Below are positions 23,534 through 41,983 of a DNA stretch of 50,513 bases, piece after piece. Within the stretch, counting starts at the first letter, position 1. Every line of letters starts with the position of its first letter. This DNA comes from Pseudomonadota bacterium. GTDB taxonomy: Bacteria; Pseudomonadota; Gammaproteobacteria; Burkholderiales; UBA11063. The position numbers were made by a program, and so were the translations under genes. The notes beneath the pieces are model-generated. The model was not told where the DNA came from. It did no database searches and worked only from the letters and a program-made list of their open reading frames with translations. Where the stretch lies: positions 1-50,513 of the forward strand of contig RXKA01000038.1 of the NCBI GenBank assembly GCA_003962985.1, written 5' to 3'.

Positions 23534-23547
23534 TACTTTCATAATAA

Positions 23548-23581
23548 AAATAAATCCATGGTTTTTACCATGGATTTATTT
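23548..23581. terminator. bidirectional terminator between ilvC and the kinase gene
   Basis: Perfect 15-bp stem (23548-23562 / 23567-23581, core AAATCCATGGT) with a TTTT loop. The A/T-rich stem ends give an A run before and a T run after, so it can work on both strands for the two convergent operons. Confidence 0.85.
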
Positions 23582-23600: not shown

Positions 23601-25091
23601 CTACATATCACCAGTCTGACTACTATAGCCACTACTCTGTGATGGCGCTTGTTGAGTAGTAGAATTACTCTTAGGTTTTGGCTTAACAACTTTTTTTGGC
23701 TTTGATACAGTAGTGTTATTTATTGGTGGTTCAACAGGGTCACTCACGACAACTGGTGCTGGTGGTACTGGTGTTGGAGCACTTATAGCCTCAGATGGGG
23801 CTGGCGATGTAATAACACTCTCATTAGTCGACACATTATTTGATTTGGTTATATCACCTGAAGCAAATAAACTATCCCAAAATATCACTACTATAATAGT
23901 AATCCCAATTAATACATATATAGCATACAATAAATAATTATTCTTTTTATTGGTACTACTTACAACTTGTTGAGAAGTGGCAGGTTGTGGTTGAACTGGA
24001 ACTTGTGGTTGAACTGGAGCTTGCGGTTGTATTTGTGTTGCCGCCAAGTTCTTTTTGGATTCAATATCTGATATACTATCTGCAAATGCCAACTCCCACT
24101 CGCTTGCGGTTGGACGCTTTAAGTTATTAAGATTACTCTTATCGAAAGCTTTTATGAATAATTGACGTAATTTTGTTCCAATAAGTGGCCAAATAATAAT
24201 GACTAAGTTTTGTTCTGGACTGATCTTATTGTGGAAATATGATCTAACCTTGTTTTTGTCATCATCATCTGGTAATTTAAACACATTATTTTTTATACTA
24301 TCATTCTTATTCCCACTACTTGAAATAATTGAGAATGGGCTCGCCCCATGCATCAAAATACCAAAAAATAACACCGCTAGAGCAAATAATTCATGCTGGT
24401 CAGTTCGAGGATTCTTACTAAAAAAATCCCCAGGATTTGGATATGTCAATAATATCTCAGGCGCTATATAACCTTCAGAAAATAATGCCGTTATATGATT
24501 TGGTGGTACTTGATAACTATCGGTATCAATCAGAAAAGCATGATATGTTTTTTTACTTACAAGAAAGTTTTCAAATTTAATATCAGCAAATAAAATGTGA
24601 TGCTGATGTAAAAATTGAATTCTGTTCGAGACTTCTTTACAGATTTTCAGTAATACAGCAACATACTCATATATAATATAGTTTTTGTTACTTGATGACT
24701 TGTAATCTTTCTGAAATTTCACATTTAAATCTTTAAATATTTCTTGAGATTCTTTATATTCTGTCATATCAATTTTTGGCATTAAATACCCTACAAACAC
24801 TCCGTTCTTATCAACGAGGATACTATCTGCATCTGGCCATGTAATGTACGGATTGCTAAACGACATTTGTGACATGTCTAATATTTTCTTTATTTTTTCA
24901 GGAGTATATGCACCTCTTTGAGAAACTGGTTCACCGTAACCTTTATACATTTTGGCACACAGCCTTTGGTCTATATCAACATCATGTATCCAACCCTCAC
25001 CACTATTGTCCCCATTCAATTGCTTTTTAATTATTACGGGAGAATCATCTTTTTTCTTAAAAAATTTTTCGTTTGTGAATTTACTAGGCAT
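23601..25091 (-). CDS. membrane-anchored Ser/Thr protein kinase-like protein (TerY-P triad kinase)
   Basis: A 496-residue protein with a eukaryote-like kinase domain at about residues 20-345, a Gln/Pro-rich linker, one transmembrane helix (about 386-405) and a Pro/Ser/Thr-rich periplasmic tail ending in a Gln/Ser stretch. The kinase fold is divergent: the ATP lysine is probably in LCAKMYKG; the catalytic loop is FADIKFENFL (D170, K172, N175; HRD is FAD) and the DFG motif is DTD (189-191). The key catalytic residues remain, so activity is plausible. It ends the unit, 2 nt after the PP2C gene, with a vWA gene before it. This kinase/PP2C/TerY-type vWA trio is the TerY-P triad known from stress-response neighbourhoods. 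Confidence 0.75.
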   Translation of the reverse strand: MPSKFTNEKFFKKKDDSPVIIKKQLNGDNSGEGWIHDVDIDQRLCAKMYKGYGEPVSQRGAYTPEKIKKILDMSQMSFSNPYITWPDADSILVDKNGVFVGYLMPKIDMTEYKESQEIFKDLNVKFQKDYKSSSNKNYIIYEYVAVLLKICKEVSNRIQFLHQHHILFADIKFENFLVSKKTYHAFLIDTDSYQVPPNHITALFSEGYIAPEILLTYPNPGDFFSKNPRTDQHELFALAVLFFGILMHGASPFSIISSSGNKNDSIKNNVFKLPDDDDKNKVRSYFHNKISPEQNLVIIIWPLIGTKLRQLFIKAFDKSNLNNLKRPTASEWELAFADSISDIESKKNLAATQIQPQAPVQPQVPVQPQPATSQQVVSSTNKKNNYLLYAIYVLIGITIIVVIFWDSLFASGDITKSNNVSTNESVITSPAPSEAISAPTPVPPAPVVVSDPVEPPINNTTVSKPKKVVKPKPKSNSTTQQAPSQSSGYSSQTGDM

Positions 25092-25093
25092 AT

Positions 25094-25978
25094 TTAAACT
25101 CTTTTAATTCTTTTTATCATGTTTTTATATTTTGATTTCTTTTTTCTTCTCTTATCTTTTATGTAGTCATAAACTATATTATGTTTTTCTAAAGGTACAT
25201 TAATTTTATTATCAGGCTTATATTCGTTCAAATTATTAATTAATGTCATTATATTAAGACTACAATCATCAAATACTTTACAGTTTGGAACTAATAATTT
25301 TTCAACAAATTGGTTAACTTCGTTTTGATGATAATGCCCTTGTTGGATTAGATTAATCAACTTTTGAGCGTTATTGCCAAAAAAATGTTCTTTATTACTA
25401 AATAAAACATGTCCTGAGCCATCTGACATTAACATAAATCCACTGATATTATCTAACCTATCACGTAAAACTCTCAGATGTCGAGGCAAGTTACTTCCTG
25501 TTGTCATAAAAGTTGAATTTGGCGTTTCACCATTTTCTGGTAAAGATAGAGGTTCTAAAGTTCCAAAATCACGATTATAACCAATTATACCATCACCAAC
25601 ATGTAATGCAATATATCGTCCGTCTTTTATGGCAACGCATAATAGAGTTGATGACAATTCATATATATCACAGCCTATTTCTGAACTTAGTCTTTTCAAT
25701 GGAGTTTGTATTGTATTACATAATAAGTTAATTACATCTTCAAGATTAGTACTATAAATATCTTCAAAATTACTCGACAGTTCATTACACATTACTTGAC
25801 AAACTAATTCTGCACCTTGTTCTGGATATTTATACGAACCTGCTCCATCAGCCAAAGCTATCACCAAAACGCCATTACTTTCCAAACTATATACACGATC
25901 TTGTCCATTTTTATTAATTGAACTATGTTTTAGTCCAGTACTTGCAGCATACATAATTTGCCAATTATTTTGTTCCAT
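25094..25978 (-). CDS. PP2C-type Ser/Thr protein phosphatase
   Basis: A 294-residue PP2C phosphatase (PP2C_2-like). The metal-binding aspartates are in NGQDRVY (D27), ALADGAGS (D44), ALHVGDGIIG (D129), LMSDGSGH (D186) and FDDCSLNIM (D237/D238). A basic C-terminus (KDKRRKKKSKYKNMIKRIKR) may hold it at the membrane or to nucleic acid. The predicted job is to reverse phosphorylation by the kinase encoded 2 nt downstream. Between the vWA gene and this gene there is a 71-nt gap with a perfect 12-bp stem-loop. No strong ribosome site is seen before the ATG. Confidence 0.85.
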   Translation of the reverse strand: MEQNNWQIMYAASTGLKHSSINKNGQDRVYSLESNGVLVIALADGAGSYKYPEQGAELVCQVMCNELSSNFEDIYSTNLEDVINLLCNTIQTPLKRLSSEIGCDIYELSSTLLCVAIKDGRYIALHVGDGIIGYNRDFGTLEPLSLPENGETPNSTFMTTGSNLPRHLRVLRDRLDNISGFMLMSDGSGHVLFSNKEHFFGNNAQKLINLIQQGHYHQNEVNQFVEKLLVPNCKVFDDCSLNIMTLINNLNEYKPDNKINVPLEKHNIVYDYIKDKRRKKKSKYKNMIKRIKRV

Positions 25979-26008
25979 ATTAAAACTTTCATTATTTTAT
26001 CTGAGTTA

Positions 26009-26037
26009 ATATAGTGTACAAAAAGTACACTATATTG
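26009..26037. repeat. perfect inverted repeat between the vWA and PP2C genes
   Basis: AATATAGTGTAC / GTACACTATATT, 12-bp arms, 5-nt loop. No T run follows on the minus strand, so it is not a classic terminator. It may be an operator, an RNA stability element or an RNase site that sets the vWA to PP2C ratio. Confidence 0.6.
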
Positions 26038-26049
26038 TATAAATATTAG

Positions 26050-26763
26050 TTACTGGTTAAATGAAAATACGGGTAGTGGTGGTTGTTCAATAGTTGGGGC
26101 TTGTCCTGCAACTGAATTAGACATCGCAACAACAGATTTACCTAACCATTCGAAAAATTTAGAAAAATCAGTGCCAGCATCTTTTACCTGTATAAAAATC
26201 TTACTCGGGTGTATAGATGCAAGCTCTTCTTCATTAACACACTCACCTATTCCGACACAAACAACATTTAATTTTTTACTGTTTATCAAATTATGAACTT
26301 GTTTTATTTGTTCCGCTAAAATTTCAGGATCTGTTGAACCTCCGTCAGTCATTAACACTAACCATGGCTGATAATAATCAATTGCCAATTGCTGAAATTC
26401 TTGCTTTTTGGTTTCTAATTTATTTAGAGCATATTTTATTGCTGATCCTGTAGCCGTAAGTCCCAAAGTATTTAAAACTAATTGAGTTGGTTCAAATTGT
26501 TCAGCTTCAATAAAATCGGTAAATTGCTTCTCTTGACCAGTAGATCCAAACCCTATCACTGACACTAATGCTGACTGACTGGCAATTGGATCCTTTTGTA
26601 AACTTTTAAAAAAATCCTTAACGGCACTTTCTAACAGTGGTATTTCTCCTGCCATTGAACCGCTTAAATCTAATAGAACCGCAATTGGCACACGTGTTGT
26701 GTTATTTAACTTTTCATCGCTAAATTCTAAATCACTGAAGTCATCAAGTCTATGGTTACTCAT
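26050..26763 (-). CDS. TerY-like von Willebrand factor A (vWA) domain protein
   Basis: A 237-residue cytoplasmic protein made almost wholly of one vWA domain. The complete MIDAS metal site is visible: DLSGSM (32-37), T104 in LTATGSA and D139 in LMTDGGS. The C-terminal FFEWLGKSVVAMSNSV matches the end of TerY-family proteins of tellurium-resistance loci. Such proteins are thought to act as metal-dependent assembly partners for the kinase and phosphatase encoded next door. AAAGGA precedes the ATG, inside a 12-bp palindrome AAGGATATCCTT. Confidence 0.85.
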   Translation of the reverse strand: MSNHRLDDFSDLEFSDEKLNNTTRVPIAVLLDLSGSMAGEIPLLESAVKDFFKSLQKDPIASQSALVSVIGFGSTGQEKQFTDFIEAEQFEPTQLVLNTLGLTATGSAIKYALNKLETKKQEFQQLAIDYYQPWLVLMTDGGSTDPEILAEQIKQVHNLINSKKLNVVCVGIGECVNEEELASIHPSKIFIQVKDAGTDFSKFFEWLGKSVVAMSNSVAGQAPTIEQPPLPVFSFNQ

Positions 26764-26782
26764 AAGGATATCCTTTTAAAAA

Positions 26783-27001
26783 TTAATTATGATTTTTACG
26801 TTTTTTCTTTTTTGGTTTTGGAGTCGGTGTCGGCGTTGGGGTTGCCTTAATCTCTTCTTTCTTCTGATTAATTAGCATTAACCGTTGCTGATATTCATAT
26901 TCAGCCGTGGGTTTCACATATAATGCTGCTTTTTTCATCACTACAACTAAGAGTAATGAAATTAATAGAATAATTACTTTGAAGTGTGAAATAGATTGCA
27001 T
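26783..27001 (-). CDS. small single-pass membrane protein with Pro/Lys tail
   Basis: A 72-residue protein of unknown function. It has one N-terminal transmembrane helix (about 8-28), a charged helical stretch (YEYQQRLMLINQKKEEIK) and a tail of Thr-Pro repeats ending in PKPKKKKRKNHN. Its ATG overlaps the stop of the M48 protease gene by one base (TAATG), so it is translationally coupled and probably works with that protease or with the vWA protein downstream. No family recognised. Confidence 0.6.
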   Translation of the reverse strand: MQSISHFKVIILLISLLLVVVMKKAALYVKPTAEYEYQQRLMLINQKKEEIKATPTPTPTPKPKKKKRKNHN

Positions 27002-28101
27002 TATGGGTTCCCCATCTTATTCATTAAATGCACAATATTCTTGGTACGAGCATAATTTGTCGGATGAGAATCTTGGAAAAAGCGTTGCCATGAGAAACCA
27101 CCAGCGTTGTTACCATAAAATTTATCCAGCGCGTCAAATAGGTCAAGCAAACCTTGTCCATAACCTAATTTTGTAGCAAATGCATCAGCGCGATATTCTT
27201 GCCCACGACTAGTTAAATTAATCAATGGTGTAATAACATAATAATTAAATTTTTCATCAAACCATAAACAAATAATCCCAGGCAACATCGCTAACCATAA
27301 GAGGAGCGCAATCATTAAAAGCGGAAAAGCAAGGATTAAGCCAAAACAACCACCATCCAACATACCGCCACCAGCCATGAATGCCATATCTCGCCATTTA
27401 CGTGGCGATAATTTATGAAAGGTACTCCGTATCAAGAGCGAAACCATACCAATGCCAATCTTAAACTGATTAATCTCGGTATCTTTATTCACAAAATGTC
27501 CAATTTCATGCGCAAGAACGGCTTTAAATAAATCATTATCTTGTTTATTATGGCTTTGTAGATAAGTTAGCACTTTCTTAGTCGGGCGTAAAACCTGTGT
27601 TGGCGTAATATGAAAACCAATATTCTCATTATCATCCTGAATTTCAAAATCAAACTTATTATAGTCAGGTAAAGTTATATTTAATTTTGTTGATGCATTA
27701 TTATGAATCTCAGCTAATGCTGCGGATAATTTCTGACGAATTGGATCTTGTGGATTAATTATTTTATAATTACTATATCCATCCACGATTTTTACAAATA
27801 TTTTCCAGACTCCAGTAATATATACCAATACATTGATACCAATAAAAATCATTGTACCTTGAAAGGCATAATACATGAATGAGTACTTACCGCTAGAAAC
27901 ACGGAGAAGAAAACTATCAAGTATTTCCGAACCGATTAAGTCTTGTGAAGTAAATTGGATTATATTCAGAAAATGTAAACCATCAAAAATAAGATGTCTT
28001 AATGCCATAAATTCAATTAGAAGACATAGCACTAACAAAAACATCATAAATGAAGAAAAAATTAGACCTAAAAAATAAACTGTCACTGATAAGATTCTCA
28101 T
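27001..28101 (-). CDS. M48-family membrane zinc metalloprotease
   Basis: A 366-residue protein with two transmembrane segments near the N-terminus and about two more after the active site. The zinc motif HEIGH (in VLAHEIGHFVNKDTE) and the third ligand in EYRADAFATK mark an M48 (HtpX/Ste24-like) peptidase. The C-terminal SWQRFFQDSHPTNYARTKNI is the usual late M48 segment. The start at 28101 (MRILSV) is an ATG with GAGAG upstream; the longer frame starts with TTG. HtpX-type enzymes remove damaged membrane proteins; here the protease lies between lipoproteins and a kinase/phosphatase set, which suggests envelope quality control. Confidence 0.85.
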   Translation of the reverse strand: MRILSVTVYFLGLIFSSFMMFLLVLCLLIEFMALRHLIFDGLHFLNIIQFTSQDLIGSEILDSFLLRVSSGKYSFMYYAFQGTMIFIGINVLVYITGVWKIFVKIVDGYSNYKIINPQDPIRQKLSAALAEIHNNASTKLNITLPDYNKFDFEIQDDNENIGFHITPTQVLRPTKKVLTYLQSHNKQDNDLFKAVLAHEIGHFVNKDTEINQFKIGIGMVSLLIRSTFHKLSPRKWRDMAFMAGGGMLDGGCFGLILAFPLLMIALLLWLAMLPGIICLWFDEKFNYYVITPLINLTSRGQEYRADAFATKLGYGQGLLDLFDALDKFYGNNAGGFSWQRFFQDSHPTNYARTKNIVHLMNKMGNP

Positions 28102-28122
28102 ATTACTCTCATTTAACAAGAT

Positions 28123-28785
28123 TTAATTATCATAAACAATCACTTTAGGTGCAAATGAGCTTTCTTGTTGCGTTGATCGCTCACTAGTATCCACATAATT
28201 AACTAATTGCTCCATTACTTTAGTTGCCAAATCCTGTGATGTTTCACGTAAAATCAAAGGATTATTAACTCTGAATATCTCACCTGATTTTAAAATTGCA
28301 GTTTGTGAACCAGTAGCATTTATATTAAATGCTGCTACACTAGCCTTGTCTTTCAAGCGTAATAATTTATAACTTACCGTAACAGATAATGTACGTGTAG
28401 CAGTAATACTATTGGTATTCGGCACTTGATAAGTGTTATCAAAATTATCTGTAGCAATAACCTGACCAATTAGTACATAACTCAGTCCGTCTATAATAAG
28501 TGCATCATGACTAACATGTCCTGACTCAGGTGATAGATGATGTTGATTAGCATCGTATTGCTTACCAGGGTCTGAGGTATTAATTGTTGCTAAATTAAAT
28601 CCTTTTGGCGCTTCAATAACTTTAAATTTACCACTTTTAACCAGTGCCCCACGAACATCAATATTATTGATACCAACATTTGTGACACCAGGAGAATAAA
28701 CTAAATTAGGAATAGCTAAATTGGGTAACGCAAAAGAAAACTTAGCACATAAGGCTAAAATAGTACATAAACGAATCCGTTTCAT
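28123..28785 (-). CDS. exported CsgG-like envelope protein
   Basis: A 220-residue protein with a cleavable signal peptide (cut near SFALPN). The body resembles CsgG/LpoB-type outer-membrane assembly proteins: DALIIDGLSYVLIGQVIATDN, TLSVTVSYKLLRLKDKASVAAFNINATGS and a final amphipathic helix RETSQDLATKVMEQLVNYV. Two Cys in the signal do not form a good lipobox. AAAGGA precedes the ATG; gaps of 30 nt before and 21 nt after keep it in the operon. The family is a fair match, the function unknown. Confidence 0.5.
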   Translation of the reverse strand: MKRIRLCTILALCAKFSFALPNLAIPNLVYSPGVTNVGINNIDVRGALVKSGKFKVIEAPKGFNLATINTSDPGKQYDANQHHLSPESGHVSHDALIIDGLSYVLIGQVIATDNFDNTYQVPNTNSITATRTLSVTVSYKLLRLKDKASVAAFNINATGSQTAILKSGEIFRVNNPLILRETSQDLATKVMEQLVNYVDTSERSTQQESSFAPKVIVYDN

Positions 28786-28815
28786 ATAGTCCTTTCTGGT
28801 CTAATTTTTGAAAAA

Positions 28816-29397
28816 TCAATACGTCATTGCTTTAGAAATATTTTTACTATTTCTAAAAATTGCAGCACCTTGCTGAACATCAAATACTTGGACAAAGAAA
28901 GTATATGCAACTAAGGTTGTTTTGCCATCAACACCCACAGAAGTATCACTCGTTAATTTGCCATCAATGCGACATTGTGCAGCTTTCATCTTACCCATTT
29001 TAGAAGTGGATGATTGGTCATACAGACCAGATTGATTTTGTCGTGATAATTCATCAACTTGATTACCCATTTCATCACTCGATACAACATAGATTGAATG
29101 CACGGCTGAAGAGTTAGACAGTTTATCTGCCATTGCATTTGTCATCACTGATGTATCAACATATTGATCAGTTGCATTCTTAACTGGCGAAATAGTAAAA
29201 GACTTACACGAATTCATTTTTCCACTTTGAATTAATTGTCCAGCCATTTCTTGAGCGACTGTACGTAAATCATTTTGACTAAAATTAGTATTCAAACTAT
29301 TAACTGCATTTGGATCCACATAAGCAACTTTTGGTGTAGCACAACCTGAGATAAACAAAACACTTAATAATGATAACTGTAGTAATTTTGACTTCAC
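28816..29397 (-). CDS. LpoB-like outer-membrane lipoprotein (PBP activator family)
   Basis: A 193-residue lipoprotein; the lipobox ISGC places the lipidated cysteine at residue 19. The mature part (SQNDLRTVAQEMAGQLIQSGKM..KSFTISPVKNATDQYVDT, then a second helix and CRIDGKLTSD) fits the LpoB family, whose E. coli member reaches through the cell wall to activate PBP1B. The start codon is GTG, with AAAAGG 7 nt upstream. It lies between a COG3014-like lipoprotein and a CsgG-like gene, an arrangement I recall from other proteobacteria. Confidence 0.75.
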   Translation of the reverse strand: MKSKLLQLSLLSVLFISGCATPKVAYVDPNAVNSLNTNFSQNDLRTVAQEMAGQLIQSGKMNSCKSFTISPVKNATDQYVDTSVMTNAMADKLSNSSAVHSIYVVSSDEMGNQVDELSRQNQSGLYDQSSTSKMGKMKAAQCRIDGKLTSDTSVGVDGKTTLVAYTFFVQVFDVQQGAAIFRNSKNISKAMTY

Positions 29398-29478
29398 AAT
29401 AATACCTTTTATAGATTACATATAAAATACAAACTAAATTAATAATTTAGCTTGTATATTTCTTACCTAAAATAACTC

Positions 29479-30870
29479 CTAATTTTGGAGCATTGAGTTT
29501 TGTGGATTAAATAAAACCTGATTGCCGATAACTCTGAAAGTTAAAATTTGATATGGTTTATTCAATTGAATTTCTTTAGTGTACGTAACACCATTCACTA
29601 CAACTTTGATTGTATGCGTACCATAAGCTAAAGTTTGACGATTAATATTAATCTGACCTGGTAATAATGCCCAACTACGTTCATCTGCTCTATCTAATAA
29701 TGCACCACCGACACTAGTACCAACACTTAGTAAAGTCCCAAGTCCACCACCTGTTGAACATGCAGCTTGAGAAGTTGCAATATTCCGTACTGCTGCAGCT
29801 ACATTACGGGTAATAATATATGAAGTATTATCTTTGATAGCGCGTGCTGCCATTAAGTTTGTATTTACCATTGGGAGTGGTTGAACGATGCTATTGTCTA
29901 GTGTATAACTATAGGTTGCTTGATTTGTCTTATCGATGATCAAAGATGGATAAAATACATTAATCATATTAACACATGAATTTTTTGTACCAACTAGGTT
30001 TAAATCAATCGGAACATGAACTTCATTCGACTTAATTTGTGGCGCATGACCTGTTTCTTCAACAATTAATAAATCAGTATATCCAGTTTTTGGACGTACT
30101 TTCTTATCAATGTTAGTGATGCTTTGCTGAATTAATTTATTAGTAGGATTTAACTGTCCAGCTTTAACGTATCCAGGTCTAGCCAATGATGGTTCGCCCA
30201 AAGCTTCAAAAATAAAACCAGCTAAATAATGTCCAAATGCATTTTGATAACTATTTTTAAGTGCTAAAACTTCAGGGCTATTAACATCTTTGAAATCAAA
30301 GTTCTTAACTATTTGTTTAGTCAAATAATCTTCAGTTTTATCTTTACTTTGCTTTTGCGCATCTGCGGATGCCTGATTGTAGAGGTATTGATTATAGTTT
30401 TGAATAGCTTGCTCAATCTGGTACATACGTTTAATCTCAATTCGAGCGTTGTCCAAATTATCCAAATCAACATGATTAAGTGCATGATATGTAGTCAAGA
30501 ATGATTTCTCATAACCACGAGGCTCATAATCATTTACATTATCATTAAGTAACATAGCCGTTGCACTAGTGCTAACTTTACCTGCTGTTGTATTTGCCCA
30601 ACTAGCAGCCCATGTATCAATACTTGATTGTGCACGAGTAAAATACAAATTGCTTGATTCATAGCGTTGATTCATCCTTAGCAATGAACCGTATTCCATA
30701 TTAAACAATACATCTGTTGTACTTTCTGCTTCCATTGCAGTGCCCAAATTACCAGAATAAATATTATTTAATCGAGCATCTGTCTTGCTCTTATAAGAGC
30801 TAACTGGATTATTTGCACACCCTACCAAAGAAGTAATTAATGCGGATAAAATTAATGTTTTATGTTTCAT
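29479..30870 (-). CDS. COG3014-like lipoprotein with TPR-like helices
   Basis: A 463-residue outer-membrane lipoprotein with the lipobox LVGC at residue 18. The N-terminal half is rich in helical repeats (LLRMNQRYESSNLYFTRAQSSID; FGHYLAGFIFEALGEPSLARPGYVKAGQLNP), as in TPR proteins. The C-terminal part has beta-rich segments and a Gly-rich stretch (STGGGLGTLLSVGTSVGGALL). This layout matches the COG3014 family usually encoded beside LpoB-like proteins. GGAG precedes the ATG. It is the first gene of the eight-gene unit; its promoter carries the CAYACT palindrome. Confidence 0.7.
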   Translation of the reverse strand: MKHKTLILSALITSLVGCANNPVSSYKSKTDARLNNIYSGNLGTAMEAESTTDVLFNMEYGSLLRMNQRYESSNLYFTRAQSSIDTWAASWANTTAGKVSTSATAMLLNDNVNDYEPRGYEKSFLTTYHALNHVDLDNLDNARIEIKRMYQIEQAIQNYNQYLYNQASADAQKQSKDKTEDYLTKQIVKNFDFKDVNSPEVLALKNSYQNAFGHYLAGFIFEALGEPSLARPGYVKAGQLNPTNKLIQQSITNIDKKVRPKTGYTDLLIVEETGHAPQIKSNEVHVPIDLNLVGTKNSCVNMINVFYPSLIIDKTNQATYSYTLDNSIVQPLPMVNTNLMAARAIKDNTSYIITRNVAAAVRNIATSQAACSTGGGLGTLLSVGTSVGGALLDRADERSWALLPGQININRQTLAYGTHTIKVVVNGVTYTKEIQLNKPYQILTFRVIGNQVLFNPQNSMLQN

Positions 30871-30907: not shown

Positions 30908-30935
30908 ATTGTAGCATTATTCACACCATAGTATG
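30908..30935 (-). promoter_or_regulatory. promoter/operator of the lipoprotein-TerY-P unit
   Basis: On the minus strand CATACT (30930-30935) sits at the -35 position, 16 nt before TACAAT (30908-30913). The 14-bp palindrome CACACC-AT-AGTATG (30922-30935) overlaps the -35. The same CATACT/TATAAT arrangement is found twice more, at 40481-40509 and 44234-44262. Confidence 0.5.
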
Positions 30936-31121
30936 AATACAGTCCTCATAAAATACAGAAATTAATTAATTATAATCACTATAGTGTATCATTTTTATAA
31001 TGGAACTATATTAACTAAAATAGCAAATTGAGTATAACAATTAGCTTATAATCATATTATCAACTAATATTTTTCGTGTAAAATACAGCTAAGTTATTTG
31101 CTAATTAACCACTACTTATAA

Positions 31122-31135
31122 CACACTGTAGTATG
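31122..31135. promoter_or_regulatory. CAYACT-NN-AGTRTG palindrome
   Basis: CACACT-GT-AGTATG is the best copy of a palindrome that recurs near 30.9, 37.7, 40.5 and 44.2 kb. It resembles the 14-bp operators of small XRE repressors. It lies 250 nt upstream of the lipoprotein-kinase unit. Confidence 0.45.
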
Positions 31136-31470
31136 AAAGTATTAATTTAATTTTATTCCTTAATCCAAATATCCAATATTACGAATAACACATAAAAAAT
31201 ATACAAGTTTTACTTTAAAAAGTAATTGACTGACTTCTAAATATGCAAACATAAAGTAGTTGATCACTACTACTTAAATTATAGTAGACAAAATACAACA
31301 CCTAAGGCAAGTAAATCCACATAAAAAGCTTATATAGTAATATTTATCTACTTGACGTAATTAGCCACTTCATATATAATTTTTGAGAAAGTATACATTT
31401 AAGTTAAGAATAAGTACTAAATACATACAGCATTAAATGAATATAACCAATATATTTTAGAAAGCGCACC

Positions 31471-31725
31471 ATGGGAAGAGTTAAACATTTAGAAAAATGG
31501 GAACGTATTGAGATTGAAACCTGTTTGAGACGAGGATGTAGTATCACTGAAATTTCTAAACAAATTAATCGTTCAAAAAGCTGTGTGTCCAAGGAAATTC
31601 GCCTTAATACCGATCCCGTGACAGGCAGATATAGTTGTGAGAGAGCTGAAACACTACACCGAGAAAGACAATACCAAGCCAAAGCTGGTACTATCCTACT
31701 TCTCGGTCGACGCGTTAAAAGATAA
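31471..31725 (+). CDS. truncated IS30-type transposase, N-terminal HTH only
   Basis: An 84-residue frame that begins like an IS30-family transposase: KHLEKWERIEIETCLRRGCSITEISKQINRSKSCVSKEIRLNT (HTH_38), then GRYSCERAETLHRER. A full transposase has about 300-400 residues with an integrase DDE core; here the frame ends at GRRVKR and six bases later the opposite Lon-like gene ends, so the catalytic part is gone. No terminal inverted repeats were found. Read it as an insertion-sequence remnant, unless the isolated HTH is used as a regulator. It marks the edge of the accessory patch. Confidence 0.65.
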   Translation: MGRVKHLEKWERIEIETCLRRGCSITEISKQINRSKSCVSKEIRLNTDPVTGRYSCERAETLHRERQYQAKAGTILLLGRRVKR

Positions 31726-31731
31726 AAGAAT

Positions 31732-33498
31732 TCACAGTAAAACTTGGGTTTCCTGTTCACAAAATAAGTCATCATAATGTTTAAAGCGCAGATAATTATC
31801 CAATACCTCAACATTAATATCTTTGCCACAAGTATTACAGTGCCAACTGAAATCAGGAAATACAAAATAGATCAGTTCAAAAATATTGCGCACTGCTACA
31901 ATATTAATCAGGTTTTGATATTCGTAGTATATGGCTTCAGAATTAGCTGCACTTACATAAACAGTACTTAAATTAGCCTCAATGCAACCTTGAATTTTTT
32001 CATTAATCATACCCACTGCAGTAATTGAACCATCCAATTCAATACAACCACTAAAAGCTAAACTATTACTTAATGGTAATCGCAAAAGTTCTGATAACAT
32101 TGTAATAAAATACACCATGCCAGCCGAACCTCCATCATGCTGCGAGTCTAATTCATGATGACTAATGATTATATCATTGGTACGCAATACTGATTCTTGA
32201 TCGCCAAGAAATAAGCGACTATGAATCTTAATTAGACTGAATGCTACCTTAATTGATTCACGAACCGCACCGCTAACCTGCCCAAGAATATCGATTTGAC
32301 CACTGCCTGCTGATAACCGAGCAGTAACAAAATTTAACATACCTCGCCGAGATTGTTTATTACCATAAACGGCAATAGCATACGCAGTACCAATCAATTG
32401 AATATTGCGTGGTACAACTTTGATATCATTAGCTGCCTGATATTTCTCCATTACTTGAGGAAAATTACGCATTATCCATTGACAATCAATATTGAGATTT
32501 TTTAATTTATGTTGCTCTAAATAATATAATCCTTTATTGATTACTTGAGTGGTGAAACTCTTAATTTCGCGTACCCCACTAATTGGTTCTTTGCTAACTG
32601 AATCAATTGACTTATAGTCAACGATAGTTTGGCATGCATCATAACTAAAGTGCAAAGGAAAATCTGGCTTATAGTCACGAAGAATGGTTGGCAACAAATA
32701 CTTATGTAAGATTGCAACTTTCTCCTCTGGCTCATAATCCTCAACTTTCACCATAACCAATCGTGAACGTAATGGTTGAGATATCTTTTCAGGATCATTA
32801 GCCGTAAATAAAAACGAAACCTTGGAGATATCAATCCCTGTATCCAAAAATAAATCGTGAAATGACTTATTTAAAACAGGATCACAAATTGATAATAAAG
32901 CTGACTCCATCGAACCATGCACATCATCAGTATTCATTTTATCTAATTCATCGAATACGATTATGGGATTCATGCATTTACTATCCATCAGACTACGCAC
33001 CAAATCACCATATGACGCAGAACGATAGCCACGCTCTTGACCAATCAAACTAAAGGAATGCCGTCCAGGAAGAGATATCAATACGAATTCAGCATCTAAT
33101 GCTTTGGCTAAACTATGACAAAAACTAGATTTACCAATTCCAGGTTTACCATAAAAACAGAAATATGGTAACTTATGATTATTAATCTTGTATTTACTCG
33201 CGAGTAAATGTTCAATGATGGAATCTTTCACGCGATGAAAGCCATAATGATACTTATCTAATAATTCGCGGACTTGATGACAATCTTGATTATATGGTTT
33301 GTAAACACCATAGGGAATACGCGTCAACGCATTGATAATATTTTTTGATTGTTCACTGCGCAAGCGAGCTTCGGGTTCATCTGCCCCAATTTGCTCAATA
33401 CGTTGCTTAATAGTGTTTGGAAGATTTGCGGGAATGTTTTTACGTAGATCGTTGATATCTAAATCTTGTAACGCAAATGAAGTTTTTCTTGCTACCAT
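31732..33498 (-). CDS. Lon-like ATP-dependent protease lacking the N-terminal LON domain
   Basis: A 588-residue AAA+ protease. From the ATG at 33498 (AGGAG upstream): Walker A YGKPGIGKSS near 117-124, Walker B IIVFDELDK near 178-185, then the Lon-type small domain (GVREIKSFTTQVINKGL). The peptidase domain holds the Ser in DGGSAGM (S458) and the Lys in INEKIQG (K501). The 43-residue spacing equals S679/K722 of E. coli Lon. The normal ~300-residue N-terminal substrate-binding region is reduced to about 110 residues. An added C-terminus with a CNTCGK pair could bind metal. It has its own strong promoter and lies next to an IS remnant. Confidence 0.8.
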   Translation of the reverse strand: MVARKTSFALQDLDINDLRKNIPANLPNTIKQRIEQIGADEPEARLRSEQSKNIINALTRIPYGVYKPYNQDCHQVRELLDKYHYGFHRVKDSIIEHLLASKYKINNHKLPYFCFYGKPGIGKSSFCHSLAKALDAEFVLISLPGRHSFSLIGQERGYRSASYGDLVRSLMDSKCMNPIIVFDELDKMNTDDVHGSMESALLSICDPVLNKSFHDLFLDTGIDISKVSFLFTANDPEKISQPLRSRLVMVKVEDYEPEEKVAILHKYLLPTILRDYKPDFPLHFSYDACQTIVDYKSIDSVSKEPISGVREIKSFTTQVINKGLYYLEQHKLKNLNIDCQWIMRNFPQVMEKYQAANDIKVVPRNIQLIGTAYAIAVYGNKQSRRGMLNFVTARLSAGSGQIDILGQVSGAVRESIKVAFSLIKIHSRLFLGDQESVLRTNDIIISHHELDSQHDGGSAGMVYFITMLSELLRLPLSNSLAFSGCIELDGSITAVGMINEKIQGCIEANLSTVYVSAANSEAIYYEYQNLINIVAVRNIFELIYFVFPDFSWHCNTCGKDINVEVLDNYLRFKHYDDLFCEQETQVLL

Positions 33499-33561
33499 TA
33501 CTTTTCTCCTTAAAATATTTATCATATTTTTTAGAGAGTTTTTTTTAATATCCAGATAATT

Positions 33562-34140: not shown

Positions 34141-34449
34141 TCAAATTAATATAGCAATTCCTTTTTCTTCTATTAAGTTCAATAGTTTCAAAGCTGCACC
34201 ACTTGGCTTTTTAACTCCTCTTTCCCATTGTGCAATTGTTGAAGGACTGATATTCAAGTATCTTGCCAAGATTGATTGACTAACATGTTCTTTATCTCTC
34301 AACATTCTGATTTCCTCAGGCGAAAACTCTTTGATGTCTTTTAGACATAATTTATCAAAAGTCTTCATTGTTTGCTTATCTGCTATACCAAGCTCATGAA
34401 TTCTTTTCATTGAACTATGAATTTCATTTAATGTTCTACTTTGTTTCAT
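34141..34449 (-). CDS. HigA/NadS-type antitoxin, XRE helix-turn-helix
   Basis: A 102-residue antitoxin/autorepressor. The HTH is at about 55-95: EIRMLRDKEHVSQSILARYLNISPSTIAQWERGVKKPSGAALKLLNLIEEKG, a close match to antitoxins paired with RelE/HigB-like toxins. It overlaps the 3' end of the toxin gene by 14 bases, in the toxin-first order usual for HigBA. The toxin gene is broken, so this is now a lone antitoxin that may still bind its own promoter. Confidence 0.85.
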   Translation of the reverse strand: MKQSRTLNEIHSSMKRIHELGIADKQTMKTFDKLCLKDIKEFSPEEIRMLRDKEHVSQSILARYLNISPSTIAQWERGVKKPSGAALKLLNLIEEKGIAILI

Positions 34450-34813
34450 TTTTTACCTCATACAATTCTTTATTTTCTAATAAATTATCAATTTCAGATT
34501 TAGATAATCCCATTAAAAATTTAGCATAACCTTGTATCGCAATTAATTCTTGACTTTCAATATTATCTCGTTCATTTTTGGCAAATCCAATAATGAACAC
34601 CCACATACCATTATAATTAGAAGCTAAGATAGTTCGATAACTCCCACTTTTCTCAAATCCTTGTCGAGCAACTCTTTTTTTGAAAACTCCACCACCAAGA
34701 TTAGCATCGACCAAGCCAGATTAGATTTCTTGGATTGCTTTTAGTAGCAAATTATCTCCAACTGAGGATTTCTTTTGCCACTTACTAAATGTTGCTGTTT
34801 TATATATACTTAT
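34436..34813 (-). pseudogene. RelE/HigB-type toxin gene with an in-frame stop
   Basis: The downstream 92 codons read LVDANLGGGVFKKRVARQG..SGSYRTILASNY..WVFIIGFAKNERDNI, the conserved body of a RelE-like (HigB-type) toxin. Upstream in the same frame the expected first part is present (YKTATFSKWQKKSSVGDNLLLKAIQEI), but a TAA at 34721-34723 interrupts it where family members have a glutamate (E-x-G-L), so a single GAA to TAA change is likely. The expected start is ATA (34811-34813) instead of ATG. Together this indicates inactivation; a restart at TTG (34714) would lack the N-terminal helix. Confidence 0.75.
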
Positions 34814-35480: not shown

Positions 35481-37658
35481 TTATTGACCGCTATAACCGT
35501 TACTAATTGTATTTAGTTTTAATGGCGCTGATCTAGTTACAATACCTTTACCGTCGTTTCCGCCTGTTGAAAGTATGCCGTAACTATTATTGGTTTTCAA
35601 ATTTTGAGCAACATTAACTAAGTAACTATTTTTATCAATTGAACAACTAGTCATATCAAATTTAACTAAAACATTAAAGTTCCAATCAACAATACTACCA
35701 TTCTGCATACTTGAATAATAAGGAGAGAATAACTGTCCATTAATCCATGTTGGTGAACCATAGCGCGTTAAATTAGCTTGCTGTGGAACATCCACGTATT
35801 GATTAGGAGTTTGGTTTTTAACCCCACAAGCAACACTCCAATTTTCACCATAAGTTAAACCAACATTAGCCGCAAAAGCAAATTTAGATTCATCAGCAGT
35901 TACCGCAGTTAAAATTAATCCACCGCGAGTACCACCATATACAGGTTTAGTCATTGCACTATTTGGGTCTAAATAGAATTTACTAACTAAAGTTGCACTA
36001 GGTGTATCATTAGTATCATTGTTCATACGGTATACATAACACCAATTTGGATCTTGATTAGTAAGTTCTGTTTTTACATGATCAGCAAAGTAGCAAACTG
36101 AGTAATAAAATTTACCATTACCACCTAAAGCGTATGCTGATACCATTGTTCTATCATTGCTATCTCTTATAATACTTTTCGTAAATGGTGCAATCAGACG
36201 TGATTCACTTGTATAGTAAACCCCATTTACTTTGTACAATTCACGATAAAAACCGTCTTCATATATATATTTACCACTATCCGACAACGCAAGTGCTGCA
36301 CCTACGTAATCAAATCCATGTAGTTTTCCATACGGGTCTGTTGAGTCACCAATTTGCGTAGGATCACGATTGTCAGTTGCTAAACGGTTGTAAATAGGCG
36401 TAGCAAGGGTATTATTTGCGCTATTATAAGTCATACTGATACCGTATCTACTAGCACCATATTCTTCACCCCAAATCCACGTATCGCCGTTTTTGTTATA
36501 CACTGGTTGCATAGAGCCACCTTTAAGATTATACCCATCACCAAAGAATTGTGTACCTAAAGAGAAGTCATAAGTTGAACTACCTAGTGGGCTTACAAAG
36601 TACGTACCCCATACATAATCATACATTGAGATGTTTTGATTACTAAGTTTTAAATTCTGTTCACGCACATACAATACAGGTGAACCATCACCATTATCAT
36701 GACAAGAGGTTTGAATGTCAACATGTTCCTCGGTGCGGTTATCATAGCTATCTGGTACTGCTTTAAAAATAAAATTTGATTTATATTGCTTAACTATACC
36801 ACTTTGTTTATTACACACATTTTTACTATTTGTTGAAAAATAAAAAGCCTGAACTTGATTTTTGTATCGGTATTTATAAGCGCCATAATATTTTGGATAA
36901 TCTTCATTTACATCATAACCATTACCAACTACTTTATACGCATAATCAAAGCTAAATTTTAATAAATCACTTTCACTAAAATTAGTACCTTGAAATTCAG
37001 CATTGTAACGAACAATACATGATTGATTAGGGGCTAAAGCTATTGGTTTAACTTTGTCGCCGCCATCAATACCGTTATCTGGATTATATTCATAACAGAA
37101 TGGTAAACCTGTTTTATTTACATAGTCGTTACGATTATTTAAACCATTTACATGATCGTATATAACGCTAGGATAGTTAGCAACCATGCCACCAAAACCA
37201 TGTAAAGAACCAGACCAAACGTGTGTGGCTGGATTACGATCTGAATATTCTGCCTTAATTCCATCTTTGCTAAATACTTGTTCAGATTCAAAGCGCTCAG
37301 TAAGCAAATTACCACGTACAAGTGTTTTACCATTGTATTCAAAAATATACCCTAATTCACACTCTTCTGGTGTTTGGATGAATTCGATTGATTCAGTATT
37401 AGGATTTGTAATTTTTAAATACCAGAATTGATGACCACCAACTTTTAAATTTGGAATACCTTGCACCATCGCACCGTTGCTATCTTCTACATATTGCTCG
37501 AATTTAATTGGCTGTAAATCCAAATGTCGTTGAGTAGCATCAGGATTAGTTGTTGGAGTAGGATAAGGATCATCACCACCATTAGAAGAGCTACCACCAC
37601 CGCCATTACAAGCAACCACAAAACAACTAGCTAGCACTACAGGGAATATTTTTTTCAT
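35481..37658 (-). CDS. large lipoprotein of unknown function
   Basis: A 725-residue lipoprotein. The signal MKKIFPVVLASCFVVAC ends in lipobox VVAC (Cys17), followed by a Gly/Ser spacer (NGGGGSSSNGGDD) and a Pro/Thr linker. The rest is beta-rich with many Tyr, Asn and Gly and several Cys that could form disulfides. No domain recognised. A ribosome site AGGAG precedes the ATG. It is divergent from the XRE regulator across a 148-nt region with two palindromic sites, so it is a likely target of that regulator. Confidence 0.75.
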   Translation of the reverse strand: MKKIFPVVLASCFVVACNGGGGSSSNGGDDPYPTPTTNPDATQRHLDLQPIKFEQYVEDSNGAMVQGIPNLKVGGHQFWYLKITNPNTESIEFIQTPEECELGYIFEYNGKTLVRGNLLTERFESEQVFSKDGIKAEYSDRNPATHVWSGSLHGFGGMVANYPSVIYDHVNGLNNRNDYVNKTGLPFCYEYNPDNGIDGGDKVKPIALAPNQSCIVRYNAEFQGTNFSESDLLKFSFDYAYKVVGNGYDVNEDYPKYYGAYKYRYKNQVQAFYFSTNSKNVCNKQSGIVKQYKSNFIFKAVPDSYDNRTEEHVDIQTSCHDNGDGSPVLYVREQNLKLSNQNISMYDYVWGTYFVSPLGSSTYDFSLGTQFFGDGYNLKGGSMQPVYNKNGDTWIWGEEYGASRYGISMTYNSANNTLATPIYNRLATDNRDPTQIGDSTDPYGKLHGFDYVGAALALSDSGKYIYEDGFYRELYKVNGVYYTSESRLIAPFTKSIIRDSNDRTMVSAYALGGNGKFYYSVCYFADHVKTELTNQDPNWCYVYRMNNDTNDTPSATLVSKFYLDPNSAMTKPVYGGTRGGLILTAVTADESKFAFAANVGLTYGENWSVACGVKNQTPNQYVDVPQQANLTRYGSPTWINGQLFSPYYSSMQNGSIVDWNFNVLVKFDMTSCSIDKNSYLVNVAQNLKTNNSYGILSTGGNDGKGIVTRSAPLKLNTISNGYSGQ

Positions 37659-37718
37659 TTTAACTCCTATTACGAATTACTATAATTTGGTTTTTATTTA
37701 TAATCTTTTTACATTATC

Positions 37719-37753
37719 AACACTACTGTGTTATTTTATCATACAACAGTGTG
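37719..37753. promoter_or_regulatory. two palindromic operators between the large lipoprotein and XRE genes
   Basis: CATACA-AC-AGTGTG (37740-37753) fits the CAYACT-NN-AGTRTG palindrome with one mismatch. A second, AACACT-AC-TGTGTT (37719-37732), is centred 21 bp away, two helical turns. They lie in the divergent promoter region and are good candidates for autoregulation by the small XRE protein. Confidence 0.5.
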
Positions 37754-37806
37754 ATACAAGAAATAATTATTTATGTTAAATTGCAAGTTTTACAAGGAGT
37801 AAGGGC

Positions 37807-38064
37807 ATGAAAAATTTGAATCCACTTTTTGTGGACTTGGGGAAATTAATCCGGGATAAGAGGGTTGCTGCCAACTTATCCCAAGATGAATTAGCGTGGC
37901 GCTGTTCATTACACCTAAATGCAATCTGGAAAATTGAAAAGGCTAAAAGCGAAATCAAACTATCAACTCTAATTAAAATATTTCGTGAATTAAAATTATC
38001 ATTTGTAGTGATTGAGCACCTTTTAGAAAAACATACCACGCAGGAATTAAGTTTAGAAATGTAA
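37807..38064 (+). CDS. small XRE-family transcriptional regulator
   Basis: An 85-residue protein that is nearly all one Cro/C1-type HTH: LGKLIRDKRVAANLSQDELAWRCSLHLNAIWKIEKAKSEIKLSTLIKIFRELKLSF. There is no effector domain. AAGGAG stands 9 nt before the ATG. It faces the large lipoprotein gene across two palindromes, and the same palindrome lies at other lipoprotein promoters nearby, which suggests a local regulon. It could also be an orphan HipB/HigA-like antitoxin. Confidence 0.85.
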   Translation: MKNLNPLFVDLGKLIRDKRVAANLSQDELAWRCSLHLNAIWKIEKAKSEIKLSTLIKIFRELKLSFVVIEHLLEKHTTQELSLEM

Positions 38065-38087
38065 TTGCGTACATCACTAAACTTAAT
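38046..38087 (+). terminator. long inverted repeat ending the XRE gene
   Basis: ATTAAGTTTAG (38046-38056) / CTAAACTTAAT (38077-38087), with an inner ATGTA / TACAT stem, followed on the plus strand by ATTTATATTTT. It overlaps the 3' ends of the two convergent genes and probably acts as terminator for the XRE gene. Confidence 0.55.
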
Positions 38088-39120
38088 ATTTATATTTTAC
38101 TAATGTAAATGGTGGTGTAAGAAATCCATCCTGCGCCACCTGTGCATTAGCAAATAAATAGCCACTCCCATGAGTAATTGACATACAAACACCAGCTATA
38201 CCATCATGAGATAATGATGTCCATGGTGTAGCACTAGTTGCATCCAATCTGATTTGTTGAACTGGATTGCTTAGAACACTACCACAAGTATACAAATAAT
38301 CACCCTGAATCGTAAAATCATAAGGTGAAGAAGCACTACTTACCCAATCTTGTAAATCAGTTCCCAATAAAGATGATTTAACAAAACTTCCTGAGATAGA
38401 ATAATATGAGTAACGTTTTCCAAGTATATTTATTTCTGAAACATCAGATGATTTAAACCCTTGGCTAACTGCACTAATCGTAACAGCACCACCATCAGGA
38501 GATACACTCATAGCAGATTCGCTATAAATATTATATGGCGTTGCAAACCAATATAACTTACCACCATAATAATTAAAACCACCTACGCTACTTCTTGGTT
38601 CAATAGGCTTTTCAACATAATTACTACCATCAAAGTAATTCTCATAAATCTTACTAGCTTTGGTAACAGCACGACTAGCCATATTAATGGTATAAATAAA
38701 ATTAGGATGTGGGAGAGATGTATTATTATCAACTCCAAATACATAAAGATTGCCATTTGAATCACTGGTAACCTTTGACACGCTAACATCAGCCAAACCC
38801 GTCACAGTAGTACAACTCCATGGAGTAGTACTGGAAGCATCAGCTCCAATAGAGCATAATTGTGTTGTACCATACAGCAAATTATTAAGCAAATAAACTG
38901 AATTAGTAGCTTTATCATAAAATATAGGTAGCGCTGCAAATACTTGATTTGCAAACGGTGCTCCAACTTGTACCCATTTACCATTAGTATTTGGCGTTGG
39001 TGTAGGCGCTGGTGTTGGATCACCACCATTATTTGATGGTGAAGAACCGCCTCCACTATTACAAGCAACCAAAGCCGTTGCACCTAATAGAGCCATTAAT
39101 AATACTGATATCTTTTTCAT
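38083..39120 (-). CDS. lipoprotein, MKKISVLLM signal family, possible beta-propeller
   Basis: A 345-residue lipoprotein with the signal MKKISVLLMALLGATALVAC (Cys20), then a Gly/Ser and Pro-Thr linker. The mature part has recurring motifs such as YDKATNSVYLLNN, SDSNGNLYVFGV, YGGKLYWFAT and GDYLYTCG, which resemble blades of a beta-propeller/Kelch-like repeat. The signal is almost the same as that of two neighbours, but the mature part is not. Second gene of the unit starting at 40174; its upstream AAGGTGT leader is shared with the gene at 41549. Function unknown. Confidence 0.7.
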   Translation of the reverse strand: MKKISVLLMALLGATALVACNSGGGSSPSNNGGDPTPAPTPTPNTNGKWVQVGAPFANQVFAALPIFYDKATNSVYLLNNLLYGTTQLCSIGADASSTTPWSCTTVTGLADVSVSKVTSDSNGNLYVFGVDNNTSLPHPNFIYTINMASRAVTKASKIYENYFDGSNYVEKPIEPRSSVGGFNYYGGKLYWFATPYNIYSESAMSVSPDGGAVTISAVSQGFKSSDVSEINILGKRYSYYSISGSFVKSSLLGTDLQDWVSSASSPYDFTIQGDYLYTCGSVLSNPVQQIRLDATSATPWTSLSHDGIAGVCMSITHGSGYLFANAQVAQDGFLTPPFTLVKYKY

Positions 39121-39159
39121 CTACACACCTTACTAGAATTTCATTGATTAACCTAATCC

Positions 39160-39187
39160 AGCTAATAGCTCGTCAAAACTATCAGCT
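39160..39187 (-). repeat. hairpin AGCTAATAG / CTATCAGCT between two lipoprotein genes
   Basis: 9-bp stem with one G-T pair. A related hairpin lies at 41924-41952 in the same place, after a paralogous lipoprotein. With no T run, it may be an intercistronic processing site or weak terminator. Confidence 0.5.
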
Positions 39188-39211
39188 GTTATTGAACTAA
39201 AATTATTAACC

Positions 39212-40174
39212 TTATCGCGCTAAACCGATTGCTTTCATAGCTGACTTATTAGCCGACTGACCTTGATATAAAGGATAAGGCAAGGTTTGCGATGAGCTAA
39301 TATAAGTTAATCTTTCTGTTGCAATTAAGCCTGATGCCAATTGTGCTCCAGCACAATCATCCCACTGATAAAAACTAACGTTAGCAGAGAATGTATTATT
39401 CTTCCACATAGCATTAAAGTAATGACCATCCGAAGGTAATGGTGCGGTATTAACTGGTGGTGAAGGATAACAGCCATCTAAAGGATTACAAGAATAATTA
39501 CCATTACTAGTAATAACCACTGTTGAGCCAGCTATAGCCTCTTTATAATGCATCCCAGAACAACTAGTTGGTAAATTATCATCAGGAACAACATAGGTAG
39601 TATTATTGGCATAAGTACCATATGGTAATTGTACCTCGGTTGGTTGTTGATAATTATTAATCACATGAATCACAAAGTCAGGATCACCACCACCAACAAT
39701 AGTACCTATTACTTCATACTTACCAGCTGGTGCACCATTTGGTGAAATTGTCAAAGTACATAAATAATTACCATTTGCATCTGGGAATCGGCATTGATTT
39801 GCAGGTAGACCTGCGGATGTTGTACTGGTAAATTCAGGTTTCGGATTGCTATCTGGTTTAATTGTAAAATTCATGGTAAATGGTGTCGTTACTCCATTAC
39901 TTTCTACATAAAATGATATTTCATAACTATCTTTGTTTGAGATATACAAATCAGTAAATCCTGACAAAACAGGCGACTCTACAGCGCTACCTAAGTTAGT
40001 ATTACCCAATTGTCTTGGTAAAGCTGCAAGAGGAATAGTTTTATTATATGAAGATGCAGCGTTTGGCGCGCCAACACCTGAAGAACCACCACCATTACCG
40101 CTGCTGCCACTACCACAAGCAACCAAAGCAGTCGCCCCAAATAGACTCATTAATAATACTGATATTTTTTTCAT
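39212..40174 (-). CDS. lipoprotein, MKKISVLLM signal family, Cys-rich
   Basis: A 320-residue lipoprotein. The start at 40174 has AAGGAG 7 nt upstream; the longer frame begins inside that ribosome site. Signal MKKISVLLMSLFGATALVAC (Cys20) then a Gly/Ser-rich spacer. The mature part has an Ig-like N-terminal portion (YISNKDSYEISFYVESNGVTTPFTMNF) and a Cys-rich C-terminal part (SCSGMH, YSCNPLDGCYP, WDDCAGA), presumably disulfide-bonded. Its upstream 35 bases are nearly the same as those of the gene at 41984. First gene of the unit driven by the promoter block at 40461-40849. Confidence 0.7.
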   Translation of the reverse strand: MKKISVLLMSLFGATALVACGSGSSGNGGGSSGVGAPNAASSYNKTIPLAALPRQLGNTNLGSAVESPVLSGFTDLYISNKDSYEISFYVESNGVTTPFTMNFTIKPDSNPKPEFTSTTSAGLPANQCRFPDANGNYLCTLTISPNGAPAGKYEVIGTIVGGGDPDFVIHVINNYQQPTEVQLPYGTYANNTTYVVPDDNLPTSCSGMHYKEAIAGSTVVITSNGNYSCNPLDGCYPSPPVNTAPLPSDGHYFNAMWKNNTFSANVSFYQWDDCAGAQLASGLIATERLTYISSSQTLPYPLYQGQSANKSAMKAIGLAR

Positions 40175-40480
40175 ACAAGACTCCTTCTCCATTTTAAATT
40201 ATTTAATTGCTTCAAATTATCACGAATATCAATCAATAGATAAACTACGAATGCGACTATAACGACACCAACTACACCACAAATTCTCCAGCTGATTACA
40301 AATTTGTTGACCGACCATCAATGGTTTTCATTAAAACAATTGTAATTATTCTGGATTAAATTCAAATATAAGTAAGATTAGATTCAGCATGTTGACTCTA
40401 AAATAATGAATATTTAATAAGATAATTTGTCACATGGATAATAAATTGTTAGACTTGAATTTTTATTTCGCATAGTCGTA

Positions 40481-40509
40481 ATTATATCATTTCATCCCAC
40501 AACAGTATG
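40481..40509 (-). promoter_or_regulatory. promoter/operator in duplicated block, copy 1
   Basis: Minus strand CATACT (40504-40509), 17-nt spacer, TATAAT (40481-40486). The palindrome CCCACA-AC-AGTATG (40496-40509) overlaps the -35, and a second, CATACA-AC-AATGTT (40519-40532), lies 23 bp upstream. CATACT is a poor -35, so an activator or an alternative sigma factor may be needed. Confidence 0.5.
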
Positions 40510-40821
40510 AATTACAATCATACAACAATGTTAATTAATTACAACAAGTAGAATAAATTTAGCCAACGTAGTAGTCAAAGTTTAGGATATGTATTAAGTG
40601 GTAATTAAGAATTTATTGAATAAACTAACAGCAAAATATCACAATTGATGCACAGTAACCTAATCATCAAATAAATTAAGTAATTCAAAATAATAGACAA
40701 CATTCAACTAAATTAAAATCTGATTAGTGAATGGAGTAACAGATCCTGATATGATAAAAAGAGGTCGCGAAAAAATGAGATGAGTTCCACTATAAAAGTG
40801 ATACAAAACACAACAAAAAAA

Positions 40822-40849
40822 GCCTGATGTTAAATACAACACATCAGGC
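40822..40849 (-). terminator. terminator of the 41984-40887 operon
   Basis: GCCTGATG (40822-40829) / CATCAGGC (40842-40849), 8-bp GC-rich stem, followed on the minus strand by TTTTTTTGTTG. It lies 38 nt after the stop of the gene at 40887. Confidence 0.85.
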
Positions 40850-40886
40850 AAGGAATACATTTCAAATCTAATTAATATCTGCTAGA

Positions 40887-41549: not shown

Positions 41550-41881
41550 TATTTTTGCTCCCCTGTAACTTTTTTAAAGCTAATTTTATTATCAAATAAT
41601 CCATTAGTAGATAACTCTGACTTCTGTTCATCTAAAATGAAAGTTGTCCCATCAACTATTAAATTATCACCTTGAATTGTCACTACAATGGTATTTGATT
41701 CGCCACTAGCTTGCAATAACAAACCACTCTCCGATTTACTTACCGTAAATGATGTATTTGCATCATTTATATCTTGCCATGTTCCAACAAATTTACTTTC
41801 TGTACTTTTACCACATGAAGTAAGAAAAATCATTATACCCACAAGAATAATGACACTAACAAATATTGAAATTCTTTTCAT
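41549..41881 (-). CDS. small lipoprotein, lipocalin-like WxD repeat type
   Basis: A 110-residue lipoprotein with lipobox LTSC (Cys23). The mature part begins KFVGTWQDINDANTSFTVSKS.. and continues with GDNLIVDGTTFILDEQKSEL, the pattern of small beta-barrel 'GTW' lipocalin-like domains in lipoproteins. AAGGTGT precedes the ATG; this leader is shared with the gene at 38083. Coupled to the gene downstream. Function unknown. Confidence 0.6.
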   Translation of the reverse strand: MKRISIFVSVIILVGIMIFLTSCGKSTESKFVGTWQDINDANTSFTVSKSESGLLLQASGESNTIVVTIQGDNLIVDGTTFILDEQKSELSTNGLFDNKISFKKVTGEQK

Positions 41882-41923
41882 CCATACACCTTATTAAAAT
41901 TTCATTAATGAATTATTTAATAG

Positions 41924-41952
41924 AGCTAATAGTTCATCAAAAACTATTAGCT
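41924..41952 (-). repeat. hairpin AGCTAATAGTT / AACTATTAGCT between lipoprotein genes
   Basis: 11-bp perfect stem, 7-nt loop, 32 nt after the stop of the gene at 41984. Paralogous to the hairpin at 39160-39187. No strong T run on the minus strand. Confidence 0.55.
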
Positions 41953-41983
41953 ACCATTTATATAATGTATAAAATAATAGATC

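Follow-up and report, generated by a model that had tools for sequence, protein, structure and literature searches.

Gene content and layout of the tract

The window, a stretch of 50,513 nucleotides, comes from an uncultured bacterium that is related to the water-dwelling Aquella and belongs to the genus Aquella; its genome is a 2.54-Mb draft of 207 contigs. Eight minus-strand genes were found at 23601-30870. All the ORFs were confirmed in place and the names given in the first-pass annotation proved largely correct. In the direction of reading, the tract starts with the genes of a COG3014-like outer-membrane lipoprotein (29479-30870; 463 aa, lipobox LVGC), an LpoB-family lipoprotein (28816-29397; 193 aa, lipobox ISGC) and a periplasmic protein with CsgG/HpaA/FlgT fold (28123-28785). 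These are followed by a membrane M48-family zinc protease (27001-28101; 366 aa, HEIGH and ExxxD motifs, with a possible upstream start at TTG 28119) and a small membrane protein (26783-27001; 72 aa). The last three genes encode a TerY/YegL-type vWA protein (26050-26763), a PP2C phosphatase (25094-25978) and a Hanks-type kinase (23601-25091). Pfam matches well over the cut-offs were obtained for LpoB (PF13036, 5e-24), Peptidase_M48 (PF01435, 1e-11), VWA (PF00092, 8e-15), PP2C_2 (PF13672, 8e-34) and Pkinase (PF00069, 4e-11). The nearest solved relative of the M48 protease is Ste24p (1.7e-4). The small membrane protein, read from its sequence as one hydrophobic span with a Pro/Thr/Lys-rich tail, has no significant family match in Pfam or NCBIfam.

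The intergenic gaps from the COG3014-like gene to the kinase gene are 81, 30, 21, -1, 19, 71 and 2 nt. The earlier description of the gaps as very small thus holds for five of the seven and fails for the 81 nt between the COG3014-like and LpoB genes and the 71 nt between the vWA and PP2C genes. The 1-base overlap of the M48 and small membrane protein genes was confirmed, the M48 stop and the following ATG having one base in common, as was the 2-nt gap between PP2C and kinase. A terminator hairpin with a U-run is present on the minus strand at 23546-23581, between the kinase gene and the convergent ilvC (-21.7 kcal/mol, z -5.9, 0/200 shuffles), and serves as the common 3' terminator of the tract and of ilvC. 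Collinearity, short gaps and one 3' terminator make the layout of the eight genes compatible with a single transcript, and co-transcription in this one genome is plausible. The 71-nt gap carries a perfect 11-bp inverted repeat with a 5-nt loop (26009-26035), which was reached in 34 of 20000 composition shuffles of the gap and is single copy genome-wide with up to 3 mismatches allowed. As an RNA hairpin it has a z of -2.2. Possessing no U-run, it may serve as an operator, as a processing site or as a weak attenuator.

The GC content of the tract genes is 29-35% compared to 34% in the genome, with a lower value for PP2C. Horizontal import was rejected on composition, as apart from PP2C the genes are at the genome level. 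Insertion at a fixed site was uninformative, since the sequence past ilvC varies among the congeners read.

The vWA-PP2C-kinase triad and its relatives

The triad is present and adjacent in the order vWA, PP2C and kinase, as seen from the ORFs and the Pfam matches. Alignment showed that the MIDAS of the vWA protein is complete (D32, S34, S36, T103 and D140), that all the metal-binding Asp residues of the PP2C protein are kept and that the catalytic K47, D170, K172 and N175 of the kinase are invariant. In agreement with the first-pass annotation, the kinase is predicted to cross the membrane by one hydrophobic span, read from the sequence at about residues 386-404 (about 23880-23936), after which a Pro/Lys-rich and predicted extracytoplasmic C-terminal tail follows. 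The kinase tail (23601-23870) and the small membrane protein (26783-27001) both show Pro/Lys-rich low-complexity sequence beside a single hydrophobic span.

The absence of a TerD partner was also confirmed, as the TerD family PF02342 had no match in any of the 23 genomes that represent the genus. This absence had been taken as unusual, but E. coli yegL-pphC-yegI has the same arrangement. The E. coli genes are in the same order and homologous gene by gene, hence a triad lacking ter genes and having a membrane kinase is already described. In single pairwise comparisons, the vWA protein showed 38% identity over 132 aa to YegL (E 2e-23), the PP2C protein 26% to PphC (E 3e-9) and the kinase 23% over 359 aa to YegI (E 6e-20). 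The two systems share the three families, the gene order and the lack of ter genes, and a location of the window kinase in the inner membrane, as for YegI, is predicted from its one clear hydrophobic span. In E. coli, PphC (YegK) dephosphorylates YegI, which is a membrane kinase (PMC13232886), and the title of a paper in the reference list of that article describes the conserved kinase motifs of YegI as missing. The window kinase keeps D-x-K-x-x-N together with its Pro/Lys-rich tail, whereas YegI has a longer C-terminal part. In E. coli, pphC-yegI adjoin the Hsp70-family gene yegD; the window has no yegD and carries the M48 and lipoprotein genes upstream instead.

The vWA gene has a patchy distribution. 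Searches retrieved it from 17 of 398 other genomes at the level of the order and from 12 of 368 at that of the class. In most of these loci PP2C and kinase genes come next, and in some of the weaker class-level ones vWA alone was recognised. No copy was detected in the 22 congeners (0/22), and a first sample covering 38 further families of the order gave none either.

TerY-P triads, which are associated with tellurite or stress loci and with CoCoNuT systems, resemble the window triad in the vWA, PP2C and kinase families and in the complete MIDAS. The window triad differs from them by the lack of TerD in its genus and of a zinc ribbon on its kinase. With PF02342 absent, it was not placed among tellurite-type TerY-P triads. 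Membership in the anti-phage TerY-P systems of PADLOC was rejected too, as the TerY model gave 12.2 bits (E 0.024) with the window vWA protein and the partner models had no match. We consider it improbable that the triad, the M48 protease and the small membrane protein form a TerY-P-like defence module to which the lipoproteins are bystanders. TerY-P modules do form part of CoCoNuT systems, and OB-fold-kinase modules related to them are reported to act as stand-alone anti-phage systems (PMC11090510), the TerY-P cluster of H. pylori is an island (PMC4978471), the vWA distribution is patchy, and the RelE-family toxin-antitoxin pair and the remnant of an IS30-type HTH_38 gene lying nearby would fit a variable region. 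However, besides the weak TerY score, the kinase has a membrane span and neither a zinc-ribbon nor an OB extension, nuclease or helicase genes do not adjoin the tract, and the resemblance to the YegLKI-type triad is stronger.

The lipoprotein cluster and its linkage to the triad

The libraries used hold no Pfam or NCBIfam model for COG3014, so the name of the first gene rests on the first-pass annotation and on the position of the gene within a COG3014-like/DUF1425/LpoB cluster. In the AF2 model of the protein (pLDDT 81) the N-terminal part is helical and TPR-like, Foldseek matching TPR proteins weakly, and the C-terminal part is beta. The copies of close congeners, as well as the second one of this genome, share 61-64% identity with it. 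The LpoB-family protein scored 85.3 bits with PF13036 (cut-off 22.3) and 90.9 bits with the NCBIfam equivalog TIGR02722, under its cut-off of 110.55. BLASTP found no similarity between it and E. coli LpoB, though the Pfam LpoB profile matches. The third protein had been called CsgG-like. This is valid at the level of fold, in the CsgG/HpaA/FlgT/TolB group (AF2 pLDDT 72.6; best Foldseek match CsgG 4uv2, E 1.7e-7, TM 0.46), while no Pfam CsgG match was found. The protein carries a Sec-type signal but lacks a lipobox and hence is no lipoprotein; having neither the Pfam match nor the lipobox, it was not placed among the CsgG curli exporters.

COG3014 was found in 16 of 22 congeners, several of which are incomplete; six gave no match, and the window genome has two copies. 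Elsewhere in the genus the genes after it are usually those of a DUF1425 lipoprotein and LpoB, sometimes along with a CsgG-fold gene, in several different genomic places, and the DUF1425 neighbour matched PF07233 in three of three copies tested. The window cluster has in common with this Aquella cluster the succession of a COG3014-like and an LpoB-family gene, in many cases accompanied by a CsgG-fold gene, and differs in lacking the usual DUF1425/YcfL gene. The DUF1425-LpoB neighbours of Aquella resemble the ycfL-lpoB pair of E. coli, and here too the window copy differs by having no DUF1425. In phylogenetic trees the window copy falls inside a clade of close congeners in which its sister is not resolved. 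The window LpoB is closer to the copies of other species than to the second in-genome copy (C84), and a recent duplication within the genome was rejected, as a sister relationship between the window copy and C84 had no support.

The lipoproteins had been linked to the control of cell-wall synthases. The known target of such control through LpoB is missing, as the UB2H domain of PBP1B, on which E. coli LpoB acts, was not detected over cut-off in 23 draft genomes of the genus, and two weak UB2H matches that were opened turned out to be Mfd. On these 23 draft genomes, LpoB control of PBP1B was rejected.

The lipoprotein genes and the triad, proposed earlier to be one system, are apart in all the relatives examined, a finding which the earlier proposal itself had named as its refutation. 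Sixteen further COG3014 copies, including the second in-genome copy, were read in context and none (0/16) was near a triad or the M48 gene of the window. The search was extended to 112 triad loci spanning 1.70 Mb, composed of 4 plasmid loci, the best 80 from a genome-contig scan and 28 from class and order searches. In profile searches of these loci, LpoB, COG3014 and CsgG-like genes were not found outside the window. M48 genes were present in 2 of the 112, the best 80 of the contig scan included, at about 6 and 9 kb from vWA and never adjacent to the triad. The association is thus conserved nowhere in the sample, and a conserved operon was rejected on the congener maps and the 112 loci, again including the best 80 of the contig scan. 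The linkage result covers 22 congeners, several of them incomplete, and its single-sequence searches may overlook very divergent partners. A plasmid search with the M48 and CsgG-like proteins as queries gave no match.

These results bear on the proposal that the tract is one operon for envelope or cell-wall phospho-signalling, in which the lipoproteins would sense or act in the outer membrane, the M48 protease would relay or degrade and the triad would signal in the cytoplasm. Collinearity, the short gaps, the M48/small-protein overlap, the kinase span with its tail and the common terminator agree with it; the lack of any conserved association, the missing UB2H target, the hairpin-bearing 71-nt gap inside the triad and the 81 nt after COG3014 disagree, and we regard it as rather unlikely. 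Somewhat better placed, though still doubtful, is that the five genes from M48 to kinase are one unit for membrane-protein quality control, in which the kinase/phosphatase pair would control the M48 protease. M48 overlaps the small protein gene by 1 base, with 19 nt from there to vWA, and both M48 and vWA have no close relatives in the genus; for M48, searches of 22 congeners and 399 genomes of the order retrieved generic M48 domains only. The Hsp70-family neighbour of E. coli pphC-yegI points in the same direction. The lack of an M48 gene adjacent to the triad in the 112 other loci, including the best 80 of the contig scan, stands against it.

A probable phospho-switch beside a second lipoprotein cluster

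The explanation which we find probable is that the tract combines a YegLKI-type phospho-switch and a lineage-specific M48/small membrane protein pair with a divergent second copy of the genus-wide lipoprotein cluster lying beside them, the lipoproteins probably being independent. The pairing of triad and lipoproteins is most likely an arrangement of one genome and not a new cell-wall signalling system. The collinearity of the eight genes and the common terminator count against this two-part explanation because they fit a single transcript, and the absence of a compositional sign of recent import was also counted against it. Since the five-gene block is compatible with it, the confidence placed in the alternatives partly overlaps with that placed in the two-part explanation. 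What points to a joint function of lipoproteins and triad is collinearity; a local link is possible, and a functional link might exist in this one species despite its absence elsewhere. In such a case a YegLKI-type switch captured by the lipoprotein cluster and M48 could form a new trans-envelope stress circuit, the kinase tail reading the state of the outer-membrane lipoproteins, which we hold to be improbable.

Evidence for the switch comes from the intact active sites, the order of the genes, the single hydrophobic span and the conserved adjacency of the triad. In the two-part explanation, the kinase would be anchored by its single span with the Pro/Lys-rich tail outside the cytoplasm, would autophosphorylate and then phosphorylate cytosolic targets. 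The PP2C protein would reverse this phosphorylation, and the vWA protein would bind Mg2+ at its MIDAS and assemble the partners. The M48 protease may have a role in the switch, and the lipoproteins probably act apart from it. To our knowledge, neither inputs nor targets have been identified for YegLKI-type triads, even in E. coli. A lineage-specific triad in which the kinase active site is intact and M48 is a possible partner would offer a place to look for them. The tract also illustrates that a system suggested by collinearity in one genome may find no support in relatives.

Several other features were observed upstream of the tract. Upstream of the COG3014-like gene are two near-identical 16-bp sites (TTCATACTAnnGTGTG), at 30920-30937 and 31122-31137, with a spacing of exactly 200 bp. 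The first forms a perfect dyad, and the site count with up to 2 mismatches was reached by 0 of 100 window shuffles. Across the genus the dyad, TTCAYAC-N4-GTRTGAA, occurs at chance frequency, and a shared operator regulon was rejected. Between the lipoprotein cluster and a Lon-like gene, a truncated HTH_38 fragment as in IS30-type transposases is found on the plus strand (31471-31725). The product of the Lon-like gene (31732-33525, minus strand) is a Lon-type AAA+ protease in which AAA and Lon_C domains were matched and which keeps DGGSAG and a downstream Lys; it matched no Lon N-terminal domain and scored well under the canonical Lon cut-off. At 34141-34714 (minus strand) there are a RelE-family toxin gene (PF06296) and an overlapping HTH antitoxin gene. 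Further upstream, a row of large lipoproteins is encoded on the minus strand at 35481-43378, with no Pfam match in those tested. Their signal peptides are alike (MKKISVLLM...GATALVAC in several) but the rest of each protein differs, and they perhaps represent a lineage-specific surface-protein family.
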